Source: Exiguobacterium sp. Helios (GTDB lineage Bacteria > Bacillota > Bacilli > Exiguobacteriales > Exiguobacteriaceae). Taken from it: DNA of 64,000 bases. Below the pieces are notes generated by a model. The model did not search any database. It saw nothing but the letters and a program-made list of their open reading frames with translations, and was not told the origin of the DNA. Positions 8,489 through 57,515 of the stretch are shown here, piece after piece (position 1 is the stretch's first letter; the number at the start of each line of letters is the position of its first letter). The position numbers and the translations under genes are program-made. Location: NCBI RefSeq assembly GCF_014524545.1, contig NZ_CP053557.1, forward strand, positions 1,761,501 through 1,825,500. The letters run 5' to 3'.

Positions 8489-8926
8489 ATGACGCGCCAA
8501 AAAAATATCGTCTATAACGTCTTGTTAAACGAGGCACGGGATCAGGTCCTGATGGTCAAAAACATTGGACCGTCGTATTCGTATTACACGTTGCCGGGGG
8601 GGACGGTCGAAGCGGGAGAGACGTTGCCGGAAGCAGCAGTCCGGGAAGCGAAAGAAGAGACTGGTTATGACGTCGCAGTCGGGGAACTGTTGCACGTCAG
8701 CGAAGCCTTTTTTCCGCAAGTCGATGAACATTGTCTGTTCTTCTTTTTCCAGTCCGAAATTCGCGGGGGCGAACTTGGCACGATTTTCCCCGATGAAATC
8801 GAGGAGATTTCGTGGGTCACGATTGCTGAGGCCGTTCAGTTCATGAATCTGTCAAAAGAATACGAACAGATTCTGACGACGCAACAGACGGTCCCGTATG
8901 TCTTCAACGGACAAATCACCCATTGA
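8489..8926 (+). CDS. Nudix hydrolase
   Basis: 145 aa with a complete Nudix box GGTVEAGETLPEAAVREAKE followed by ETG (residues about 37-59), so the Mg-binding REAKEE glutamates are present. Members cleave nucleoside diphosphates linked to another moiety; the C-terminal half sets specificity and is not informative here. I prefer ATG 8489: GGGGGG at 8477-8482 directly abuts ATG 8483 but is well spaced for 8489. The stop overlaps the region just before the next GNAT gene, suggesting an operon. Confidence 0.85.
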   Translation: MTRQKNIVYNVLLNEARDQVLMVKNIGPSYSYYTLPGGTVEAGETLPEAAVREAKEETGYDVAVGELLHVSEAFFPQVDEHCLFFFFQSEIRGGELGTIFPDEIEEISWVTIAEAVQFMNLSKEYEQILTTQQTVPYVFNGQITH

Positions 8927-27435: not shown

Positions 27436-28049
27436 CATAGTGTACGTGCACTTGGGGTACCGAAGGATTTAGTCGATAATGAAATCGTAAAAGCATGCTC
27501 GCCCTTTTTAAGTTTGATGCCTTCAGGAGAATTGATACCAGCTAATGATCTTCCGACCATGGACTCATTAATGGTCGACTTTTCTAACATCAACAGGTCA
27601 TATTCAGATGCGTGGAATGATTGGTTCTGAAACTCGACACCCGTCATCAAGGATTTTTTCAAATCATTTGATTCTTCGGACCACTCATTCATCGTATCCT
27701 CCAGCTCATATCTGTAGGACCGGTAGCCTTTTGTGCGATCAGACTGTTGACTGAGTTTCAGTGATTTTCCGTCATATTGACCGGGTTTGATGGTCTCGGA
27801 AAACTAGATTTTCTGCTTGCCCGACGCAAAATACTCGATTCCGGTCAGGTAAAGGGGTTGATCCGTTTGACCGGTCATGAGATAGGTCGCGCTATTTACA
27901 AAGGCATCTGCCGGTTTTTTGGACTCAACTAATTTAAGTGTCAACGGCAGTTCCGTTGGTTTGATGACTTTTTTCGGACCGGTTTCTTCCGTACTGCAAC
28001 CGGCAAGTAAAAGTGCCGATAGTGAACAGACAAGCAGTTGTTTCAACAT
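27435..28049 (-). pseudogene. Lipoprotein gene with one in-frame TAG
   Basis: ATG 28049 starts MLKQLLVCSLSALLLAGC, a signal peptide with lipobox LAGC. The frame meets TAG at 27806-27804 after ASGKQKI and then continues uninterrupted (FSETIKPGQYDGKSLKL, YRSYRYELEDTMNEW) to 27435. The total would be 204 aa. Sequence on both sides is protein-like and in the same frame, so the lesion is a single nonsense change, plausibly CAG (Gln) to TAG. The truncated product would be about 81 aa. Family unknown; resembles secreted immunoglobulin-like stress lipoproteins. Confidence 0.8.
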
Positions 28050-28142
28050 CCACGTCACGCCCCTCATATGTAAGTACATTCAGTGTAAGGGGAATGGATG
28101 ATATTTACAATCGGATTAGGTTTCATAGGAAGGAAGGGTTAT

Positions 28143-30290: not shown

Positions 30291-31112
30291 ATGACTTACT
30301 TAATTTGTACGACGTGCGGGGTCCAGATGGATGAGAACGTAACACAGGACGACATCTGTCCGATTTGTACGGACGAGCGGCAATATGTGAATCCAAACGG
30401 TCAATCGTGGACGACACTTCCGGATATGATTTCGTCCGATACATATCAGACGACCGTGACGGAGGAACAACCGGGACTTTCGAGTCTCGTCACGACACCG
30501 AAGTTCGGGATCGGGCAGACGGCTTATCTCGTCGCGGGAACCAAACGGATTCTTTGGGACTGCATCACCTATCTCGATCAGGCGGTCATCGATACAGTGG
30601 GTCAACTCGACGCGATGGCCTTGTCGCATCCGCACTATTACGCGACCCAGGTCGAGTGGGCGGAAACGTTTGAAATTCCACTGTACATTCATGAAGCAGA
30701 TCAATAGTGGGTGACGCGACCAAGTGAACAGATTGTCTTTTGGTCCGATGACCGTTTGGAGTTAGCTGACGATGTAGTGTTACACCGGATCGGCGGTCAC
30801 TTTGACGGGGCGACCGTGCTCGAATGGACGACGGGGGACGAAGGACGCGGGATTTTACTGACGGGGGATATCGTCCGTGTCGTTGCCGACCGGGCATGGG
30901 TCAGCTTCATGTACAGTTATCCGAACCTGATTCCGTTACCGGCGGCAACCGTCGCTGAGATGGCGTCTGCCCTAACAGACGTCCGCTTTAATCAAATCTA
31001 CGATGCGTTCCATAAAATCGTCGTGACGGATGCCAAAGCCGCCGTCGCCCGTTCTGCCAGCCGCTACATCGAGGCGCTGAACGGACACGTTAAGGAACGT
31101 GAACGGCAATGA
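30291..31112 (+). pseudogene. MBL-fold hydrolase gene with one in-frame TAG
   Basis: A zinc-ribbon-like start (CTTCGVQM and CPICTDE) leads into a metallo-beta-lactamase fold: YLVAGTKRILWDC, LDAMALSHPHYYATQVEW (partial metal motif), then TAG at 30705-30707 after IHEADQ. The same frame continues WVTRPSEQIVFWSDDRLE, HRIGGHFDGATVLEW and LLTGDIVRV. Together the halves are one 273-residue enzyme of a familiar type, so this is a nonsense change, plausibly CAG to TAG. It overlaps the next VOC gene by 4 nt, like an intact operon. Confidence 0.85.
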
Positions 31113-38338: not shown

Positions 38339-38497
38339 TTATCGCTCAACCCGGACCAATGTTTCCCCGCAATTTTGACAAATCGAATTCATCGTCTCGG
38401 TACACTCTTTACAAAAGATACAGTTGTGCGAACAGTGGTACGTTTCCTGACCGTCTTCAAATGTCTCCGCACAGCGGGTGCAATTTGTTGCCTGCAT
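38339..38497 (-). CDS. DUF1272-family zinc-ribbon protein, 52 aa
   Basis: A short gene with start ATG 38497, AGGTG 8-12 nt upstream and stop TAA 38341-38339. Eight cysteines and histidines are arranged as in DUF1272: NCTRCAETFEDGQETYHCSH, NCIFCKECTETMN, ICQNCGETLVRVER. This should bind two zinc ions. The family function is unknown. Monocistronic. Confidence 0.8.
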   Translation of the reverse strand: MQATNCTRCAETFEDGQETYHCSHNCIFCKECTETMNSICQNCGETLVRVER

Positions 38498-50024: not shown

Positions 50025-50050
50025 CTCAAACCTCCTCTATTGTTATTTTT

Positions 50051-50749
50051 TTACACACTCCGAACGGTTTGCTTCCGCCGGTCTTCGACAATCTGCCCGT
50101 CCTGCATGAATAGAATCCGGTCCGCCCGCTCCGCGAGTGCCAAATCGTGCGTGACGAACAGGATGCCGCATTGTTCTTCTTGATGCAGATCGAGCAACAG
50201 TTGAAAGATCATCTCCCCGTTGACCGAGTCGAGATTGCCGGTCGGTTCGTCGGCGAGAATCCAGCGCGGCCGATTGATCAGGGCTCGGGCAATCGCGACC
50301 CGTTGCTGTTGCCCGCCGGACAATTGCGCCGGCAAGGCATCCTGTTTCGCTGTCAGCCCGACTTTTTCCAAGATTTCCGCAATCCGGTCTTCTTTGTTGA
50401 AGTCGGTTTTTTGTTTTAGTAAGGGAACAAGCAGATTTTCTTTGACCGTCAACGCGGGCAACAGGTGAAACTGTTGGAAGACAAAACCGATTTCCTGCGC
50501 CCGGAACTTTGACAATTGCCGGTTCTTCCACTTCGTGATGTCTTGTCCGTCATAGTCGATTTGCCCCGATGTCGGACGGTCGAGCGAGCCGATCAGACTT
50601 AAAAACGTCGATTTCCCTGATCCGGACGGACCGACAAGGGCGGTGATGTCACTCGCGGAAAGCTGACAGGTCAACGCTTTTAAGACTTCACTCTGTAGTC
50701 CCGCCTGGTTGAATGTGTGCGAGACGTCTTTGACTAAGATATCCATCAA
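50051..50749 (-). CDS. MacB/LolD-type ABC transporter ATPase
   Basis: 232 aa. Walker [11 protein letters not shown]-loop [17 protein letters not shown], signature [16 protein letters not shown], Walker [14 protein letters not shown]-loop FVTHD. A paralogue with near-identical layout lies at 63291. Forms an exporter with the 878-aa permease. No adjacent sensor kinase or response regulator is seen. Confidence 0.92.
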
Positions 50750-50872
50750 ACCACTCCTTTTACAAATTAAGGTAAAATAAGTGTAATATTATTTGAAAAT
50801 TTTGTCTATTTATAAAAGATGATTACATAGAGAATAGAAAATCGAAACAGAAGTTTCCGGTCGAATGAGAAT

Positions 50873-50903
50873 AAAAAAATCAGCTAAACGTTGTGTTTAG
50901 CTG
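50873..50903 (-). terminator. Intrinsic terminator
   Basis: CAGCTAAAC and GTTTAGCTG with a 5-nt loop; on the minus strand it is followed by ATTTTTTTATTC, closing the 50947 gene. Confidence 0.75.
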
Positions 50904-50946
50904 AGGCATATTAACACTTTGGCAGATTCGTTCTTTCAGCACAATC

Positions 50947-51351
50947 TCACCGGACAGTCTGCTCGTTCATTGCGTCTAGAATAGTCTGGACCCAGTCTTG
51001 GGGAGGGCCGATACACTTCATAATGCCATCAATATGATAAAACGTGCTCGCTTCCGGACCGGTCCAACAAGTTTCGTCCGTCATGCAAAGAAAAATCGGA
51101 ATTTGAGAGGCAAGAGCAATCCCGAGCTCGACGTGACTGCCTTTTCCGGCAGGGAGGACTAAAATCATGCAATCGATCGCCCGGACGGCATCGAGTTCCA
51201 GCTGTCCAATCCGTTGCAGGGCAGCCGGTGTATCGACCCGTTCCGATTGCGTCCAGTCGTACGTCAAGTGATGACCTTGCTTAATCAGTTGGTCGTTTAT
51301 GAAACGGACGTCTTCGATGTTGCGGAAGCTGCTAGCAGTATAAAAGTTCAT
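50947..51351 (-). CDS. Nucleoside 2-deoxyribosyltransferase-like protein
   Basis: 134 aa. MNFYTASSFRNIEDVRFIND at the start and LPAGKGSHVELGIALASQIP (with the catalytic-type Glu in H-V-E-L) are characteristic of the nucleoside deoxyribosyltransferase/CMP hydrolase (RCL) fold. The Asp pair VRAIDCMI is also conserved. The actual nucleotide substrate is unknown. Monocistronic, divergent from the ECF sigma gene. Confidence 0.75.
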   Translation of the reverse strand: MNFYTASSFRNIEDVRFINDQLIKQGHHLTYDWTQSERVDTPAALQRIGQLELDAVRAIDCMILVLPAGKGSHVELGIALASQIPIFLCMTDETCWTGPEASTFYHIDGIMKCIGPPQDWVQTILDAMNEQTVR

Positions 51352-51388
51352 CTAACGATCTCCTGTCGTATAATTTTTTACAGATTTT

Positions 51389-51418
51389 TGAAACTAAATC
51401 GGCTTTTAATCAGTCTAA
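51389..51418 (+). promoter_or_regulatory. ECF-type autoregulatory promoter
   Basis: TGAAAC (51389-51394) and AGTCTAA (51412-51418) are separated by 17 bp, resembling ECF sigma -35 (TGAAAC) and -10 (CGTC-type) elements. It lies directly before the sigma gene, as expected for autoregulation. The -10 is duplicated by the adjacent tandem repeat. Confidence 0.45.
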
Positions 51419-51438
51419 TGATTTAATCAGTCTAATGA
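51405..51438 (+). repeat. Perfect 17-bp tandem duplication in the sigma promoter
   Basis: TTTAATCAGTCTAATGA at 51405-51421 is repeated without any spacer at 51422-51438. The unit contains the AGTCTAA -10-like element, so a second copy lies 17 bp downstream, 25 bp before the GTG start. Confidence 0.85.
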
Positions 51439-51462
51439 ATAGAGAAGAAAGGGGGGAGTGCT

Positions 51463-51990
51463 GTGTTTCGTAAAAAAATCGCCGGGAGTTGGACGGATGA
51501 TGTGTTTCTCGCAGCGTTATATGCCGAAGAACGCTATATTTACCGGATGTCGTATCTGTATTTAAAACACGAGCAGGAAGCGCTCGAAAACGTGTAGGAA
51601 GTCGCTTTTCGCGCCTGGAAGTACCGAAAGTCACTGCAGGATGTCACCTATTTTAAGACTTGGCTGACCCGGATCACGATCAATGCAGCACTCGATCATC
51701 TTAAGAAATACCAAGTGCTGGTCTGGACAAACGATACGGCACAGGATAGGGGTGAGCCGCAAATCCCGTCGTTTGAACATGTGGTCGTTGATCAACTGTA
51801 CCTGACTGATTTACTTGAACGACTCGATGTCAAGGAACGGTCGTTAGTCACGTTACGGTATCAAGCCGATTATTCCTTTCAGGAAATTGCTGGTTTACTC
51901 GACATTCCGATCAGTACGGTGAAAAGTACGTTATACCGGGCGATTCAAAAACTACAACGCCATCAAGCGAAAGGAGGAGAGTCCGGATGA
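51463..51990 (+). pseudogene. ECF sigma-70 factor gene with an in-frame TAG
   Basis: GTG 51463 (GGGGGGAG upstream) opens a 175-codon frame. Region 2: FLAALYAEERYIYRMSYLYL, then ALENV, TAG at 51595-51597, EVAFRAWKYRKSLQD and TWLTRITINAALDHL. In ECF factors this position is Gln in the conserved D-x-x-Q-E-V/T-F motif, so CAG to TAG fits. Region 4: SLVTLRYQADYSFQEIAGLL, DIPISTVKSTLYRAIQKLQ. Coupled to an anti-sigma gene. As written it is non-functional unless TAG is read through. Confidence 0.85.
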
Positions 51991-52826
51991 AACAGCAACT
52001 GGAGACAGCATTAACCCACATTCCCGTACCGGATACCGTTCATGCCCGGATGGAGCAGGGCATCCGTCGGAACAGACGGAAACACCGAGTACCGCAACTG
52101 ATGTTGGCAGCCGTCCTGCTGATCGGTCTGTTGCAGTATGATCGGATTGAGTCCTGGATCCAGCCGCCGATCGACCAATCGACCGCCTCGATGATTCCAG
52201 GACTTGTCTACCAGAAAGCGATATACCTGCAAAGTGATACGACAATCGCCGAAGAAACGGAGTTTCAGTTGCGTGGACAAAAGTTAGGTGTCTCCAAAAA
52301 TACCTGGACCGAAGGCGCGGAAGCCGTTAACGTCAAGCAATCACTTGGATCGAATCTAGAGAATTATACGATTTACGTCGTAAAAGGATATGATCCCGCG
52401 ATCCGACTGCTCGCGGTCGGACAGGAGGACGGGGCTGAAATCGTCCGCGTGCTGGACCGGTCGACATTCCGTCCGGATTATTTCCAACAGCTTCACCTGC
52501 AACAGACAATTCTTCGTGCTAATTATCAAACGTTCTCGACATGGGAATCGACCAACTCGGAACCGATTTCCGCAGGATTCCGGCTGCGTCAATTATTTGC
52601 TGAATTGAGCAAGGCGGTTCCGTTACGCGAGTCGGATCTTGCGGCGGATGTCGTCGAGTATCAAAATGACACCGATCTGCGGATTCTGAACGTGACGATG
52701 GCAGACGGGGTGACGAACCAATTCCGGTTGATTCGTGAAGGCTATGTTTATTATGAACCGCTCGACCGTTACTTTGCCGTCAACGGGCCAGTATTTGATG
52801 ATGTCTGGGAGCAGTTGAACCAGTAA
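51987..52826 (+). CDS. Anti-sigma factor-like single-TM protein
   Basis: 279 aa overlapping the sigma stop by ATGA. An N-terminal cytoplasmic arm (about residues 1-35, RNRRKHRVPQ before the membrane), one helix (residues 37-51) and a large extracytoplasmic domain (LYVTM-like repeats VYQKAIYLQSDTTIAEET, FRLIREGYVYYEPLDRYF). No zinc-binding HxxxCxxC motif is seen, so it is not a classical ZAS protein. By context it inhibits the upstream sigma factor until an envelope signal is sensed. Confidence 0.7.
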   Translation: MKQQLETALTHIPVPDTVHARMEQGIRRNRRKHRVPQLMLAAVLLIGLLQYDRIESWIQPPIDQSTASMIPGLVYQKAIYLQSDTTIAEETEFQLRGQKLGVSKNTWTEGAEAVNVKQSLGSNLENYTIYVVKGYDPAIRLLAVGQEDGAEIVRVLDRSTFRPDYFQQLHLQQTILRANYQTFSTWESTNSEPISAGFRLRQLFAELSKAVPLRESDLAADVVEYQNDTDLRILNVTMADGVTNQFRLIREGYVYYEPLDRYFAVNGPVFDDVWEQLNQ

Positions 52827-52832
52827 CACCAA

Positions 52833-53228
52833 TTACTCAAAGGACTTCCGAAAGCCGTAAAACGGGCGGAACGCCTGACCGCGGTAAAAACTTTCCGAGC
52901 TGCTTGACGCCAGGACCTCAATCCGGGTTGTCGGATACCAGTCATGAAGACGGGCGAACAGCTGTTGCGCAAGACCTTGGCCACGGAAATCGGCCTCAAT
53001 CAGTAATTCACAGATGTACAACGTGACCTGAGTGTCTGTCATTCCGCGGACATAACCGATGACCTCCCCCGCATGTTCGACGACAAGCGCAGCGTTCGAG
53101 TGTTGCCAAGCGAGTTGGGTCCGTTCATGGAGACGGACGAGCTGGTTCCAGCCTTCCGCAGCATTTAAGCGCTGAATGGCGGGGAAGTCCTGATCTTGGT
53201 ATGGTCGAATCTGGTAAGTAGTTGTCAT
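52833..53228 (-). CDS. GNAT acetyltransferase
   Basis: 131 aa. Motif A TLYICELLIEADFRGQGLAQ, then QLFARLHDWYPTTRIEVLAS and ESFYRGQAFRPF as the C-terminal motif. Compact, near the minimum size of the fold. Start overlaps the broken HAD gene's stop (ATGA), so they were one operon. Substrate unknown. Confidence 0.85.
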   Translation of the reverse strand: MTTTYQIRPYQDQDFPAIQRLNAAEGWNQLVRLHERTQLAWQHSNAALVVEHAGEVIGYVRGMTDTQVTLYICELLIEADFRGQGLAQQLFARLHDWYPTTRIEVLASSSSESFYRGQAFRPFYGFRKSFE

Positions 53229-53753
53229 GAGCGTGACCTTCTTTCTGAATTAAGTTTGATGAGAATGGGTTCGAGTTCCGACCAATCGTTCACAGTGTAG
53301 GAGGACGGACTATTGACGACCGGTTGATTACTTTTTAATACCGCCGTCATGCCAACTGCTTCTGCTCCTTTGATATCGTGCAGTGGATGATCCCCGATAA
53401 ACAGGACCTGTTCCGGTGTGAGTCCCCAGTCTTGTACGGGACGGAGGAACAAAGCCGGTTCAGGTTTTGCAAGACCAACTTCTTCCGAAATCAGGATCGG
53501 ATCAAAAAATGTCTGCAACTGATGGTGGGCGATGACCGATCGTTGCAAGTCACTCCGACCGTTCGTTATGAGCCCAAGGCGAGACGAGACCGTTTTGGTC
53601 AAAGGTCAGAAAGAGGGTTTGATAAGAGTCAAGTGGACAAGTTGGAACGGGCGCAATCAGACGAGCATGTTGAGGTTTCAAAAAGAGCTGCAAAGAAGTC
53701 GTACGATCAAGTAACGTCCCGTCGAGATCAAATAAAACAGCGGAGAGGGTCAT
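53225..53753 (-). pseudogene. HAD-superfamily phosphatase, cap region deleted and frameshifted
   Basis: From ATG 53753: MTLSAVLFDLDGTLLDRTTS gives motif I (DxDGT), continuing to LFLTFDQNG. The rest, in another frame, begins near 53602: SRLGLITNGRSDLQ (motif II T/S), SEEVGLAKPEPALF (motif III Lys), and VLFIGDHPLHDIKGAEAVGM (motif IV). The helical cap, about 60-70 residues in relatives, is missing. An internal deletion of 3n+1 or 3n+2 bp near 53600 explains both the loss and the shift. The C-terminal half ends at 53225. Confidence 0.78.
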
Positions 53754-53906
53754 GAAATAGCAACTCCTATTCATTATGTATATTTCAATTACCGTAATAT
53801 TAACACAAAATTAATCGAAAACTTAAAAAGGATATCTCACATCTGTACAGAACATCAATATCTATATTCGTCTACTTCGTTAAACTGCTTGCACAAGGAG
53901 AGTCAC

Positions 53907-54806
53907 ATGCAAATAAAAACATCTTCATTTAACCCAGTACAGTATCTGGATACACAAACAGCCGGAACACCCATCCTGATTTTGACCGGAATGGGCTGTT
54001 CCTATCATGAATGGTATGAGATTGTCCAAACACTTCAAACAACCAACTGGGTGCTCAGCTTCCACCGGCATTCATGGCGGGAAAGGGACGGAGTTCACCG
54101 GACCAGTCACGCTGTTCAACAACTAAAGACACTATTGACCCATTGCAACGTAGACGAACCGATTCTCCTGGTCGGCCATTCCTACGGGGGACTGATTGCG
54201 CAAGAGTTTGCGATCCGTCATCCCGATCAATTAAAAGGGTTGCTTTTGGTCGATTCGACGTCGGTTGACTTACACGAACTGGATACTCTTGATACACCGG
54301 TGCTTGGCACCCTGTCATCCGATGCCACTTGGATCAAACAATGCCGGTATTATGCGACACAAACGAACGATTAGTCGCGTCGTTTGGTTCAACCGGTACT
54401 GACGCCGGCGCAACATCGATTACCGAAGACGATTCAGTCGGCATTGCTTGACTTCCAAACCGAACCGGCACTGTATGCGATGATGGCGACCGAAGTCACA
54501 CACTGGAAAATGGATGCACAACGGATAAAAAGAAACACGTTTCCCGACTTGCCGCTGATTGTCATCGGACGGGACCAGAGGAAAGCCATTGCCGAAGGAC
54601 TGCAGGACGGATTACCGGAAACGGAAGTTCGTCAGCTGGAAGAGACGTGGCATCAACTCATATTACGACAGGCGAACCTGACAAAAACGGCAACGATTCG
54701 GTTTGCTGAAGGAGCAGGCCATGCCGTTCACCTCGACCGGCCGGAACTTGTCATCGCGGCAATCCGACAGCTCGACCAAACTCCAGTAAAGGACGTGTTG
54801 CAATGA
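53907..54806 (+). pseudogene. Alpha/beta hydrolase gene with one in-frame TAG
   Basis: ATG 53907 (AAGGAG upstream). LLVGHSYGGLIAQEFAIRHP supplies the Ser nucleophile and LLLVDSTSVDLH the following strand. TAG occurs at 54372-54374 after YYATQTND; the same frame continues SRRLVQPVLTPAQHRLPKTI, LPLIVIGRDQRKAIAEGL (Asp) and FAEGAGHAVHLDRPELVI (His). The full product would be 299 aa with a complete Ser-Asp-His triad, two thirds of it on either side of the stop. A single nonsense change is the likely lesion. Confidence 0.85.
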
Positions 54807-54817
54807 AACGGGGCATC

Positions 54818-55726
54818 TTAGTTCAGTCCAACCAGTGATTTAGTCCGCTGCTTCTCACTGTACATCGCTTGATCCGCTTTTTGAAACACGGTTACTACAT
54901 CGGTTGTTGCTTCATCATACGCAAACCCAACGGCAATCGACAGGTCATGTTTGAGGAACTCGCTCCGTAATTGTTCCAGTAAATGGCGACACTGCTGTTC
55001 CGTGTACCCCTGGCAGACGATGACGAATTCATCTCCCCCGAGACGGAACGCTTCTTGGCTGAAACGGCTTAAGCAAAGGGCCGTCTGTTGGAGCAACGCA
55101 TCACCTGCGATATGACCAAACCGGTCATTGACCCGTTTTAGATCGTTCAGATCCAGCGTGAGGATACCCAGCGGAATGGCCTCAGAGGATATCATCTCTT
55201 CGATCAAGCAGTCGAATGCATGGCGATTGTAGAGACCGGTCAACGTATCACGTTGACACAGTTGCTCGAGTTCCTGCTGTTTGGCCTTCGCTGCATTCAT
55301 GTTCCGGATCACACCTTGAACGGCAACGATTTCGCCGTTCTCATAAATCGGAGTCGTATATTCTTCAAACCAAATATATGTACCGTCATTCGTCCGCCAG
55401 CGTTGCAGGAACGGTTCATCGTAGTTGCAGTTACCCGAGATTTTCGACATTAAAATCTCGAGATCATCCGGATGAATCCGGTCGAAACAATCGGACGGGT
55501 CGGCATAACTCGCTTCAACCGTTCCGACACCGATATGTTCATCGAGAGAAGGACTGATATAACGAAAGCGATAGACCGGTCTGACTTCAAAGATATACAT
55601 GATGTCTTTGGAATGGTTCCCGAATGCGGCAATCGTCGAAGGTAGAGACAGCGGACGCATCTTTTTGAATATCCAACAACATAGGAGGGTCAATCCAATC
55701 CCAATTGTCATTCCAAACCACAACAA
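54818..55726 (-). CDS. PAS-GGDEF diguanylate cyclase
   Basis: About 302 aa from TTG 55726 (AGGTG 6 nt upstream; the frame opens at 55768). One N-terminal helix (residues 5-22), a PAS domain (IMYIFEVRPVYRFRYISPSL, then EIVAVQGVIRNMNAAKAKQQ) and a GGDEF domain: DTLTGLYNRHAFDCLI, LDLNDLKRVNDRFGHIAGD, and the active site RLGGDEFVIV intact. The product should make c-di-GMP under PAS control; no EAL domain is linked. Confidence 0.9.
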   Translation of the reverse strand: MLWFGMTIGIGLTLLCCWIFKKMRPLSLPSTIAAFGNHSKDIMYIFEVRPVYRFRYISPSLDEHIGVGTVEASYADPSDCFDRIHPDDLEILMSKISGNCNYDEPFLQRWRTNDGTYIWFEEYTTPIYENGEIVAVQGVIRNMNAAKAKQQELEQLCQRDTLTGLYNRHAFDCLIEEMISSEAIPLGILTLDLNDLKRVNDRFGHIAGDALLQQTALCLSRFSQEAFRLGGDEFVIVCQGYTEQQCRHLLEQLRSEFLKHDLSIAVGFAYDEATTDVVTVFQKADQAMYSEKQRTKSLVGLN

Positions 55727-55961
55727 AAGCTTCACCTGCCTTATTTTTAATGCTTCAGCTCGTATCAAAACGTATGTATGCGTGATAATGTAGATGAGAT
55801 GCTAATAGAACACACTAAATTATAGCAAATGCATTGAATAATACATACAAAAAATGACAATTCACATATTTACTTTCTTGATATTATACTGAGCGATAGG
55901 AGTATATTGATCAGCAAGGTGACGCTTTCTGGAAAGATAAAAGATTTTCTCATTCCACGAC

Positions 55962-56002
55962 AAAAAAGTCAGCAAAATACGAACTGTTTGGCTGACCTTT
56001 TT
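55962..56002 (-). terminator. Intrinsic terminator
   Basis: AAAAAAGTCAGC and GCTGACCTTTTT arms with a 17-nt loop; minus-strand readout ends in TTTTTTG. Confidence 0.6.
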
Positions 56003-56006
56003 GTGT

Positions 56007-57098
56007 TCATAGTCGATGCATTTTTGAGCATGTCGGAATCGTAAACGCGTCCGAGGCTCTATTACTAAACTCACGAAGATAGTGGAGATAGTTCTTACCG
56101 CCATAGTTATACCGTTTATTATACATCCTCACAACAACAAGCTGACTTTCGGGTACTACGAGTAAGAGTGGACCAGTGTTTCCAAGAATTTGATAAGAAC
56201 CCTTTGGAACACGTTCTCCGATCTCACTTCTTTCCTTTGCTTCGTCTTGCACGTACCAAAACAATCCATTGGCAGGAAGTCGTCCATCATCGTACTGAAG
56301 ACTTTGAATGGATGTACAGATTCGAATGACTTCTTCCGGAACAACTTGAATTCCGTCATGACGTCCCATATTTAAATGAAGATTTCCCCATAACGCAAAT
56401 TCTTTTGCAGTCGTGTGCAGATTTGAACCCATTCCGTCATCATACGGGTACAACTGGAACACTGCCTTCTGCTCAGGGTCATCGATGACTTTGACCAAAG
56501 CTTCCGACTCCTCTGTTGACCATTCGGTAGATTTAAATCCTAATGGAGTGAAGACGCGCTCCTTCAATAATTGAGTGAAATCATAGCCATACAGATACTT
56601 AAACAGTTCCGTGATAATCCGGATATTGATTCCACGGTAGGCCCAACTTTCACCTGCAGCGAACTCCCTGTAAATTGATCCGTCATCTCGTTCATCTAAA
56701 CCATGTGAGTGGGTGACCAGATGACGAATGGTCGTGCCTTGGAAAATCTGTTGATCATAGTTCCTCAAGTATTTCGAGACACAATCATCAAGACTGTGAA
56801 TCTTTTTTTCATACAACGCATAACCAATTGCTAACGCTAAATAACTTTTACGAGCGGAAGCAATATTGAACATGGAATGTCTACCGATCGGGTTCGAATC
56901 TTCATTGGAATGAAATCCTTCGTAGTGTTCTAAAATGATTTGATCATTCTGTATGACAACTACCGCTGCGGCACTGCTATGATTTAGATGCTTAATCTCG
57001 CTTACGTAGGAAAGCAGCTTTTGATAGGAAGGGTGCAAATGAACAATGCTCCTTTCGTGTTTTGATGAATTGGTCTCCAAGTTTGTGTCTCTTAACAA
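56007..57098 (-). CDS. Class C beta-lactamase-like serine hydrolase
   Basis: 363 aa. The Ser-x-x-Lys motif occurs as SARK in MFNIASARKSYLALAIGYAL, YRGIN stands where Y-x-N is expected, and the final turn is LGNTGPLLLVV in place of H/K-T-G. So it is probably a cytoplasmic D-aminopeptidase/esterase-type relative, not a true beta-lactamase. No signal peptide. The gene is AT-richer than its left-hand neighbours, and with the genes to 60.1 kb may be a transferred block. Confidence 0.82.
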   Translation of the reverse strand: MLRDTNLETNSSKHERSIVHLHPSYQKLLSYVSEIKHLNHSSAAAVVVIQNDQIILEHYEGFHSNEDSNPIGRHSMFNIASARKSYLALAIGYALYEKKIHSLDDCVSKYLRNYDQQIFQGTTIRHLVTHSHGLDERDDGSIYREFAAGESWAYRGINIRIITELFKYLYGYDFTQLLKERVFTPLGFKSTEWSTEESEALVKVIDDPEQKAVFQLYPYDDGMGSNLHTTAKEFALWGNLHLNMGRHDGIQVVPEEVIRICTSIQSLQYDDGRLPANGLFWYVQDEAKERSEIGERVPKGSYQILGNTGPLLLVVPESQLVVVRMYNKRYNYGGKNYLHYLREFSNRASDAFTIPTCSKMHRL

Positions 57099-57146
57099 TT
57101 AGAATAAAGCTATAAAATCCATCTGCTCTAATCCACTTCTTAAGAC

Positions 57147-57308
57147 TTAAAGCACTAGATACGTCCGAAACCCCCGATTGGCATAATAGGAGTCCGCTCC
57201 ATTGTGATAGACAAAAATGTGATCATACCGCCGGTCGCAAAAAAGGGCGCCATCTTTTGTCCGAATCGATTCCAGCGTCTCGATTCAGCCGGATTTCTTC
57301 AAATCAAA
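57147..57308 (-). pseudogene. 3' fragment of a DUF4256 gene
   Basis: The minus strand encodes FDLKKSG, a TGA where the intact gene has TGG (Trp), then IETLESIRTKDGALFCDRRY and DHIFVYHNGADSYYANRG ending FRTYLVL and TAA. It is clearly homologous to the last 54 residues of the intact 60189 gene, most residues matching. No upstream part of the gene was found. It is a diverged remnant, possibly a trace of recombination at this point. Confidence 0.85.
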
Positions 57309-57515
57309 TTTACCTATGCCTTATGTATGTATTCTTTTGATTCAACAATGGAATGATCTGTAAAATGAGATACATTAAAGTATAGTAAACAACCGAATTT
57401 AAATATACAAAAAAATCCCATTTTAATTTATGGAAGTCCTAAAAATATCAAATACGGCACCTGCCAAAGCGGGTACCGTATTTTCGTAACCTTGAGACGA
57501 CAGATAGGAAGACAG
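57309..57515. other. AT-rich intergenic stretch
   Basis: No ORF with coding character. A terminator at 57451-57484 belongs to the ABC operon; the rest is unremarkable A/T-rich sequence. Confidence 0.5.
57451..57484 (-). terminator. Intrinsic terminator of the ABC-2 operon
   Basis: On the minus strand AATACGGTACC and GGTGCCGTATT pair with one G-U, 31 bp after the permease stop. Confidence 0.65.

Follow-up and report, generated by a model that had tools for sequence, protein, structure and literature searches.

The locus described here raises a simple question. When the gene of an ECF sigma factor is cut by an in-frame TAG at a conserved residue, while the anti-sigma gene beside it is intact, has the sigma factor been lost, or does the stop codon set how much of it is made? 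The reading that we prefer, at a probability of roughly 0.83, is loss: a recently inactivated ECF sigma gene (a young nonsense pseudogene), which has left the anti-sigma of an apparently autoregulated operon orphaned. We infer the lost function of the sigma, the autoregulation, the partnership of the two proteins and the harmlessness of the loss. A literature search by title and abstract found no publication on this locus among the matches listed.

The interrupted reading frame

The sigma-factor gene occupies positions 51463–51990 on the forward strand of the window (the whole stretch of DNA analysed, 64,000 nucleotides, positions 1,761,501–1,825,500 of its contig). It begins with GTG, downstream of the ribosome site AGGGGGGAG, and its frame ends with a TGA at 51988–51990. 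Codon 45 (51595–51597, forward strand), which specifies a conserved region-2 glutamine in the relatives, is TAG. The frame and its coordinates, the TAG, the ATGA (51987–51990) by which the anti-sigma frame overlaps the sigma stop and the open anti-sigma frame at 51987–52826 were all confirmed as first annotated.

This is no chance reading frame, since the 130 residues past the TAG match the Pfam families Sigma70_r2 (profile positions 29–68 of 71, E 2e-5) and Sigma70_r4_2 (E 2e-14), and three relatives have uninterrupted orthologues with 96–97% identity to the entire frame. In the window copy, region 2 is split by the TAG, and regions 2 and 4 are not found in one protein. Since 17 orthologues are uninterrupted, with both regions aligned, the window copy is, judged from its sequence, a broken ECF sigma gene of the usual plan (sigma2 and sigma4, with a short linker). 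The 44-codon stub alone matches no Pfam family, and would retain about the first 28 of the 71 positions of the region-2 profile. The initial annotation had held that a stop after 44 codons removes region 4 and nearly all of region 2; region 4 is indeed lost entirely, but the statement on region 2 was too strong.

A split or restarted sigma factor was also considered, and rejected. Past the TAG, the frame offers no ATG or TTG as a start and just three GTGs; a possible internal frame of 91 codons (51715–51990, forward strand) begins at the first of these. This frame would encode nothing but region 4, lacks a clear ribosome site and is probably not used.

The only intact orthologue run against the family models was that of genome G004, which scores 82.8 against a cut-off of 42.9 for the ECF superfamily model TIGR02937. 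Its best NCBIfam scores, 108 bits for TIGR02954 and 91.3 bits for SigV (NF053879), give it a likeness to the SigV-/TIGR02954-like sigma factors; however, both are well under the respective cut-offs of 188.5 and 190. With PADLOC, the intact sigma orthologue had two matches, both weak.

Comparison with related genomes

Nineteen genomes of the genus Exiguobacterium were searched, one per species and including that of the window. A sigma orthologue is present in 17 of the other genomes at 54–97% identity, with an internal stop in none; G006 has distant sigma matches only. Codon 45 is Gln in all 17 orthologues and CAG in all six that align without gaps at the DNA level. The residue is invariant in 24/24 aligned sigma proteins (the 17 orthologues and seven further sigma matches in the genus, without the window copy), which upholds the first description of the TAG as lying at a conserved region-2 Gln. 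Among the 19 genomes the TAG is private to this one, so that intact orthologues (17/17) stand beside a disrupting TAG found here alone, as in a nonsense pseudogene. Comparison with orthologues, which the initial annotation had named as the way to check its claim, therefore shows the sigma to be real and constrained in the relatives, with the same TAG in 0/17; it supports the claim of an interrupted sigma with an intact anti-sigma that lacks its partner.

This genome holds four sigma-like places, the broken copy included. The portion of PMC3171730 bearing on this gives sigma gene counts of 4, 4 and 8 for E. sibiricum 255-15; there, the B. brevis row and the text (41 ECF of 52) show the second number to be the ECF count. 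Relatives of the anti-sigma occur in the named genomes of E. antarcticum DSM 14480 (91%), Exiguobacterium sp. KRL4 (91%) and E. undae DSM 14481 (59%).

The sigma frame carries a second private substitution, Asp to Gly at codon 144 in region 4 (D144G; 51892–51894, forward strand), and both this change and the TAG are derived in this strain. As the 130 codons past the TAG contain a single private missense change and no second stop, the lesion should be very young. The retained ribosome site, -35 and -10 boxes and anti-sigma frame, which taken by themselves count against decay, also suggest a young lesion. A further point against decay is that position 144 is variable in the more distant orthologues. 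The sequence past the TAG cannot by itself tell a lesion from a tolerated or leaky stop.

A sequencing or assembly error, where the true base would give Gln and the sigma gene would be intact, is rather improbable. The interruption amounts to one C-to-T difference, seen in this genome alone, which was the sole one of its species searched, as might be expected of an error. Nevertheless, the TAG is outside any homopolymer run, the sigma gene has D144G as another private change, and the 3.15-Mb genome (2 contigs) is rated 100% complete and 0.09% contaminated. Other lesions of the window, including a ~150-bp deletion and stops with changed neighbouring codons, are of a kind that is rarely a base-calling artefact, although this is no proof for the TAG base itself.

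The meaning of TAG in this organism

Recoding was tested since three further in-frame TAGs lie in clear genes of the window. These are an MBL-fold-like gene, named from the sequence reading (30291–31112, forward strand; TAG at 30705, codon 139), an alpha/beta hydrolase gene (53889–54806, forward strand; TAG at 54372, where G009, G013 and G004 have Gln, and with extra substitutions just past the TAG) and a fast-evolving lipoprotein-like gene (27438–28067, reverse strand; TAG at 27806, Trp in G009). By our own sorting, all four single in-frame stops that lie well inside clear genes of the window are TAG; three of the four align with Gln in the nearest relative (G009), and the fourth with Trp. 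In the MBL-fold-like gene, G005 has a TAG at codon 89, and the other 16 genomes with a match are uninterrupted; the TAGs of this strain and G005 are in different codons (139 and 89, respectively) and hence independent. A HAD-family phosphatase gene (53225–53774, reverse strand) has suffered an internal deletion of ~150 bp and a frame change compared with G009, and its match is split in G013, G005 and G008 as well. That other genes of the window are broken too supports loss in the case of the sigma.

Reassignment of TAG to Gln in this organism would account for the three TAGs that align with Gln, yet its probability is negligible. Of 180 first-look tRNA candidates, 150 were scored; this gave 65 tRNA genes for the genome, and on re-reading with ARAGORN not one of them had the CUA anticodon. 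The gene of release factor 1 (prfA) scores over the cut-off and has no internal stop in 19/19 genomes. TAG also acts as an ordinary terminator: in ORFs of at least 120 codons, sampled from 20 stretches of 20 kb here and 20 stretches of G009, it ends 19 of 355 ORFs (~5%) in this strain and 15 of 342 in G009. The sample and the window together contain 27 TAG-ended ORFs of at least 90 codons, of which 12 had no counterpart in the G009 stretches, three were interrupted window genes and two had distant matches only. The remaining ten, which have a close full-length or near-full-length counterpart in G009, could be compared; nine end at the same residue and one within two residues. Finally, a single in-frame TAG occurs in only 6 of the 211 matched G009 ORFs. 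Reassignment was rejected on the grounds of the tRNAs, the intact release factor and the conserved terminators.

A bias of broken genes towards TAG was rejected as well. When 211 of 474 G009 ORFs were matched in this strain, single in-frame stops were TAG in 6 cases, TAA in 4 and TGA in 3; when 216 of 456 ORFs of this strain were matched in G009, they were TGA in 5, TAG in 2 and TAA in 1, so there is no consistent preference in these raw tallies, which include start-site artefacts. For the chance figures, rows with two or more stops, or with single stops in the first 25 or the last codons of the reference ORF, were set aside, the early and late single stops because in such cases the start may well be wrong or the ORF doubtful. 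In the window this applied to the stops at 8827, 15586 and 34811, and to the double-stop matches at 38350 and 62012. Sorting left four TAGs, all in the window, and a single TAA from elsewhere. Under mutation alone, the chance of TAG in four of four is ~0.014, and that of at least four in five is ~0.05, both being post hoc figures on hand-sorted rows.

A leaky-stop attenuator has also to be weighed. Here a near-cognate Gln-tRNA would read the TAG at a low rate, and sigma output would follow the efficiency of readthrough. The rarity of TAG as a terminator and the four TAGs well inside window genes are in its favour, as is the MBL-fold-like gene, which past its TAG is constrained with respect to four relatives (dN/dS 0.08–0.14); however, this constraint may predate the stop. 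Belinky et al. 2021 (PMC7918605), in the sections relevant here, argue that many bacterial in-frame stops are read through. Against this, the sigma TAG is shared by 0/17 relatives, hence there is no sign of its maintenance; the tallies have no shared TAG preference, and the run of four TAGs was noticed post hoc. The lack of a CUA tRNA among the 65 identified and the intact release factor 1 point the same way. We therefore consider an attenuator quite improbable. The idea of partial readthrough as a switch, put forward in the initial annotation, found no specific support from any of these results or from the behaviour of TAG elsewhere as a terminator.

A broader form of the idea, in which TAG would be a weak terminator throughout the genus and the TAG-interrupted sigma, MBL-fold-like and hydrolase genes would still yield some full-length protein, is very improbable. 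If it were true, stop readthrough would set the dose of an ECF sigma, with the anti-sigma made from its own ribosome site.

In-frame TAG codons opposite CAG in bacterial orthologues have already been described, with an example from Paenibacillus, in the passages cited from Belinky et al. 2021 (PMC7918605). The present case is similar in having a single in-frame TAG where the orthologues have CAG, in a gene that is otherwise conserved. It differs in that those passages focus on stops common to at least two species at the same position, while the sigma TAG occurs in one genome.

The predicted operon promoter and the probable loss of the sigma factor

A predicted self-promoter is located at 51389–51418 on the forward strand, with a -35 box TGAAAC (51389–51394), an 18-base spacer and a -10 box GTCTAA (51413–51418). 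In 18/18 genomes, this one included, TGAAAC is found upstream of the orthologue, followed 18 or 19 bases on by GTCTAA (nine genomes) or ATCTAA (nine genomes); 13 of the upstream regions were aligned. The predicted promoter therefore has AAC in the -35 box in every genome; its -10 box is not an exact CGT, the other element in the AAC/CGT description of ECF promoters given in part of PMC8103513. The same source, in its account of how ECF sigmas were first defined, lists positive autoregulation and co-transcription with an anti-sigma among their features. The present pair resembles ECF sigma/anti-sigma pairs in the overlapping downstream gene of a membrane protein and in the predicted self-promoter with AAC in the -35 box, and differs from them in that the window sigma copy is interrupted.

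In this genome, the sigma operon has the sole occurrence of the exact pattern TGAAAC-N16-19-GTCTAA. Across the 19 genomes this pattern has 24 matches, 9 upstream of this operon and 15 elsewhere, compared with 25 in a backward-read control. A wider regulon at the exact pattern was accordingly dropped, and the target promoters of the TGAAAC...GTC type that had been envisaged downstream reduce, for this pattern and in this genome, to the promoter of the pair itself. Judged on the exact promoter pattern alone, we infer that the sigma module would chiefly control itself.

The promoter of this strain also contains a perfect tandem duplication of 17 bp (51405–51438, forward strand; copies at 51405–51421 and 51422–51438), which repeats the -10 box and leaves the first copy at the normal 18-base spacing. 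It is absent from the 17 relatives. An 18-bp tandem duplication, likewise repeating the -10 box, is present in G002, whose sigma gene is uninterrupted. The two are independent events, with the first copy normally spaced in both. Since there is such a counterpart beside an intact sigma, the duplication is no sign of decay, and it was dropped as one.

In ECF sigma factors, the region-2 part opens the -10 box and the region-4 part binds the -35 box. In the ancestor, the module would have been autoregulated: the sigma, kept bound by the membrane anti-sigma, would have become free on an envelope signal and then driven transcription of its own operon at the TGAAAC/GTCTAA promoter. The nonsense codon at position 45 in this strain would stop translation within region 2, and as translation ends there, no protein able to bind promoter DNA would be made. 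The operon would be left without positive feedback and the anti-sigma without its partner. Loss of the sigma first should be tolerable, since an anti-sigma without a sigma has no target to inhibit.

If this reading of recent inactivation is correct, the locus is a clean example of a first step in the loss of an ECF module, with the sigma gone, the inhibitor intact and the promoter boxes still present, and relatives at graded distances could show the fate of an orphan anti-sigma. It would also be a warning for annotation: the sigma may be defunct even where the anti-sigma gene is intact. Apart from this, it would be a case of ordinary gene decay and no new type of switch.

Divergence from the nearest relative

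Between this strain and G009, five codons of the sigma gene differ, four by missense and one by nonsense, with no synonymous change over ~117 synonymous sites. The TAG and D144G are derived here; V109I, R159W and G172R are derived in G009. Other pairs of sigma orthologues that were compared have dN/dS values of 0.16–0.33. The chance that five of five changes are non-synonymous is ~0.01 if dN/dS is 0.2, and ~0.28 if the gene evolves neutrally. Arg159Trp in G009 affects a conserved region-4 residue, which is Arg in the other 16/16 relatives. These counts would fit relaxed constraint on the sigma in both branches, but they come to only five changes, three of them in G009.

An alternative is selected silencing, in which loss or weakening of the sigma was favoured in parallel, by the stop in this strain and by Arg159Trp in G009. 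The five non-synonymous differences without a synonymous one, and the two changes at sites that the other relatives conserve, would be expected in this case. However, neutral loss accounts for the same counts with a probability of 0.28, and a weakening effect of Arg159Trp is presumed; we regard selected silencing as unlikely.

Over 50048–57316, the window is 95–97% identical to G009, as opposed to 82–92% over most of the remaining matching window. This block, which includes the sigma operon, is likely to have been recombined.

The predicted anti-sigma protein

The predicted anti-sigma (51987–52826, forward strand) is an intact membrane protein of 279 residues. Its strong ribosome site, AAAGGAGGAG (51970–51979, forward strand), was read directly; since the gene has this site of its own, its start need not depend on full translation of the sigma frame. 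Counting this genome, 18 have a match to the protein, which spans its full length in 7 and part of it in 11, and in none does a stop fall within the matched stretch. The sigma and anti-sigma matches are neighbours on the same strand in 18/18 genomes with both; the ATGA overlap itself was read in the window.

The protein has a short, presumably cytosolic N terminus, one hydrophobic helix and a large C-terminal part that is presumably external. By composition and hydropathy, the hydrophobic stretch covers approximately residues 35–52, with ~225 residues beyond it. There are no cysteines among the 279 residues, so the usual His/Cys motif of zinc-binding anti-sigmas is absent. The protein thus agrees with its first description as an anti-sigma without the usual zinc motif and with a large external domain, the external side being presumed.

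No Pfam family over the cut-off and no NCBIfam family was found for the anti-sigma, and therefore it is not of the RsiV type by these sequence models. A profile search against solved structures gave nothing up to E 1, and PADLOC nothing for this protein. An AlphaFold model, built on a 4-row alignment, has a mean pLDDT of 45.

The N-terminal and membrane part (residues 1–60; 51987–52166) differs from G009 much more strongly than the remainder does. The first 60 codons have ~12 synonymous and ~12 non-synonymous differences from G009, while past residue 60 there are 2 and 3, respectively. This abrupt shift at residue 60 suggests recombination. By eye, residues ~26–52 resemble those of G005, a sign of possible mosaic exchange of the presumed sigma-binding part of the anti-sigma.
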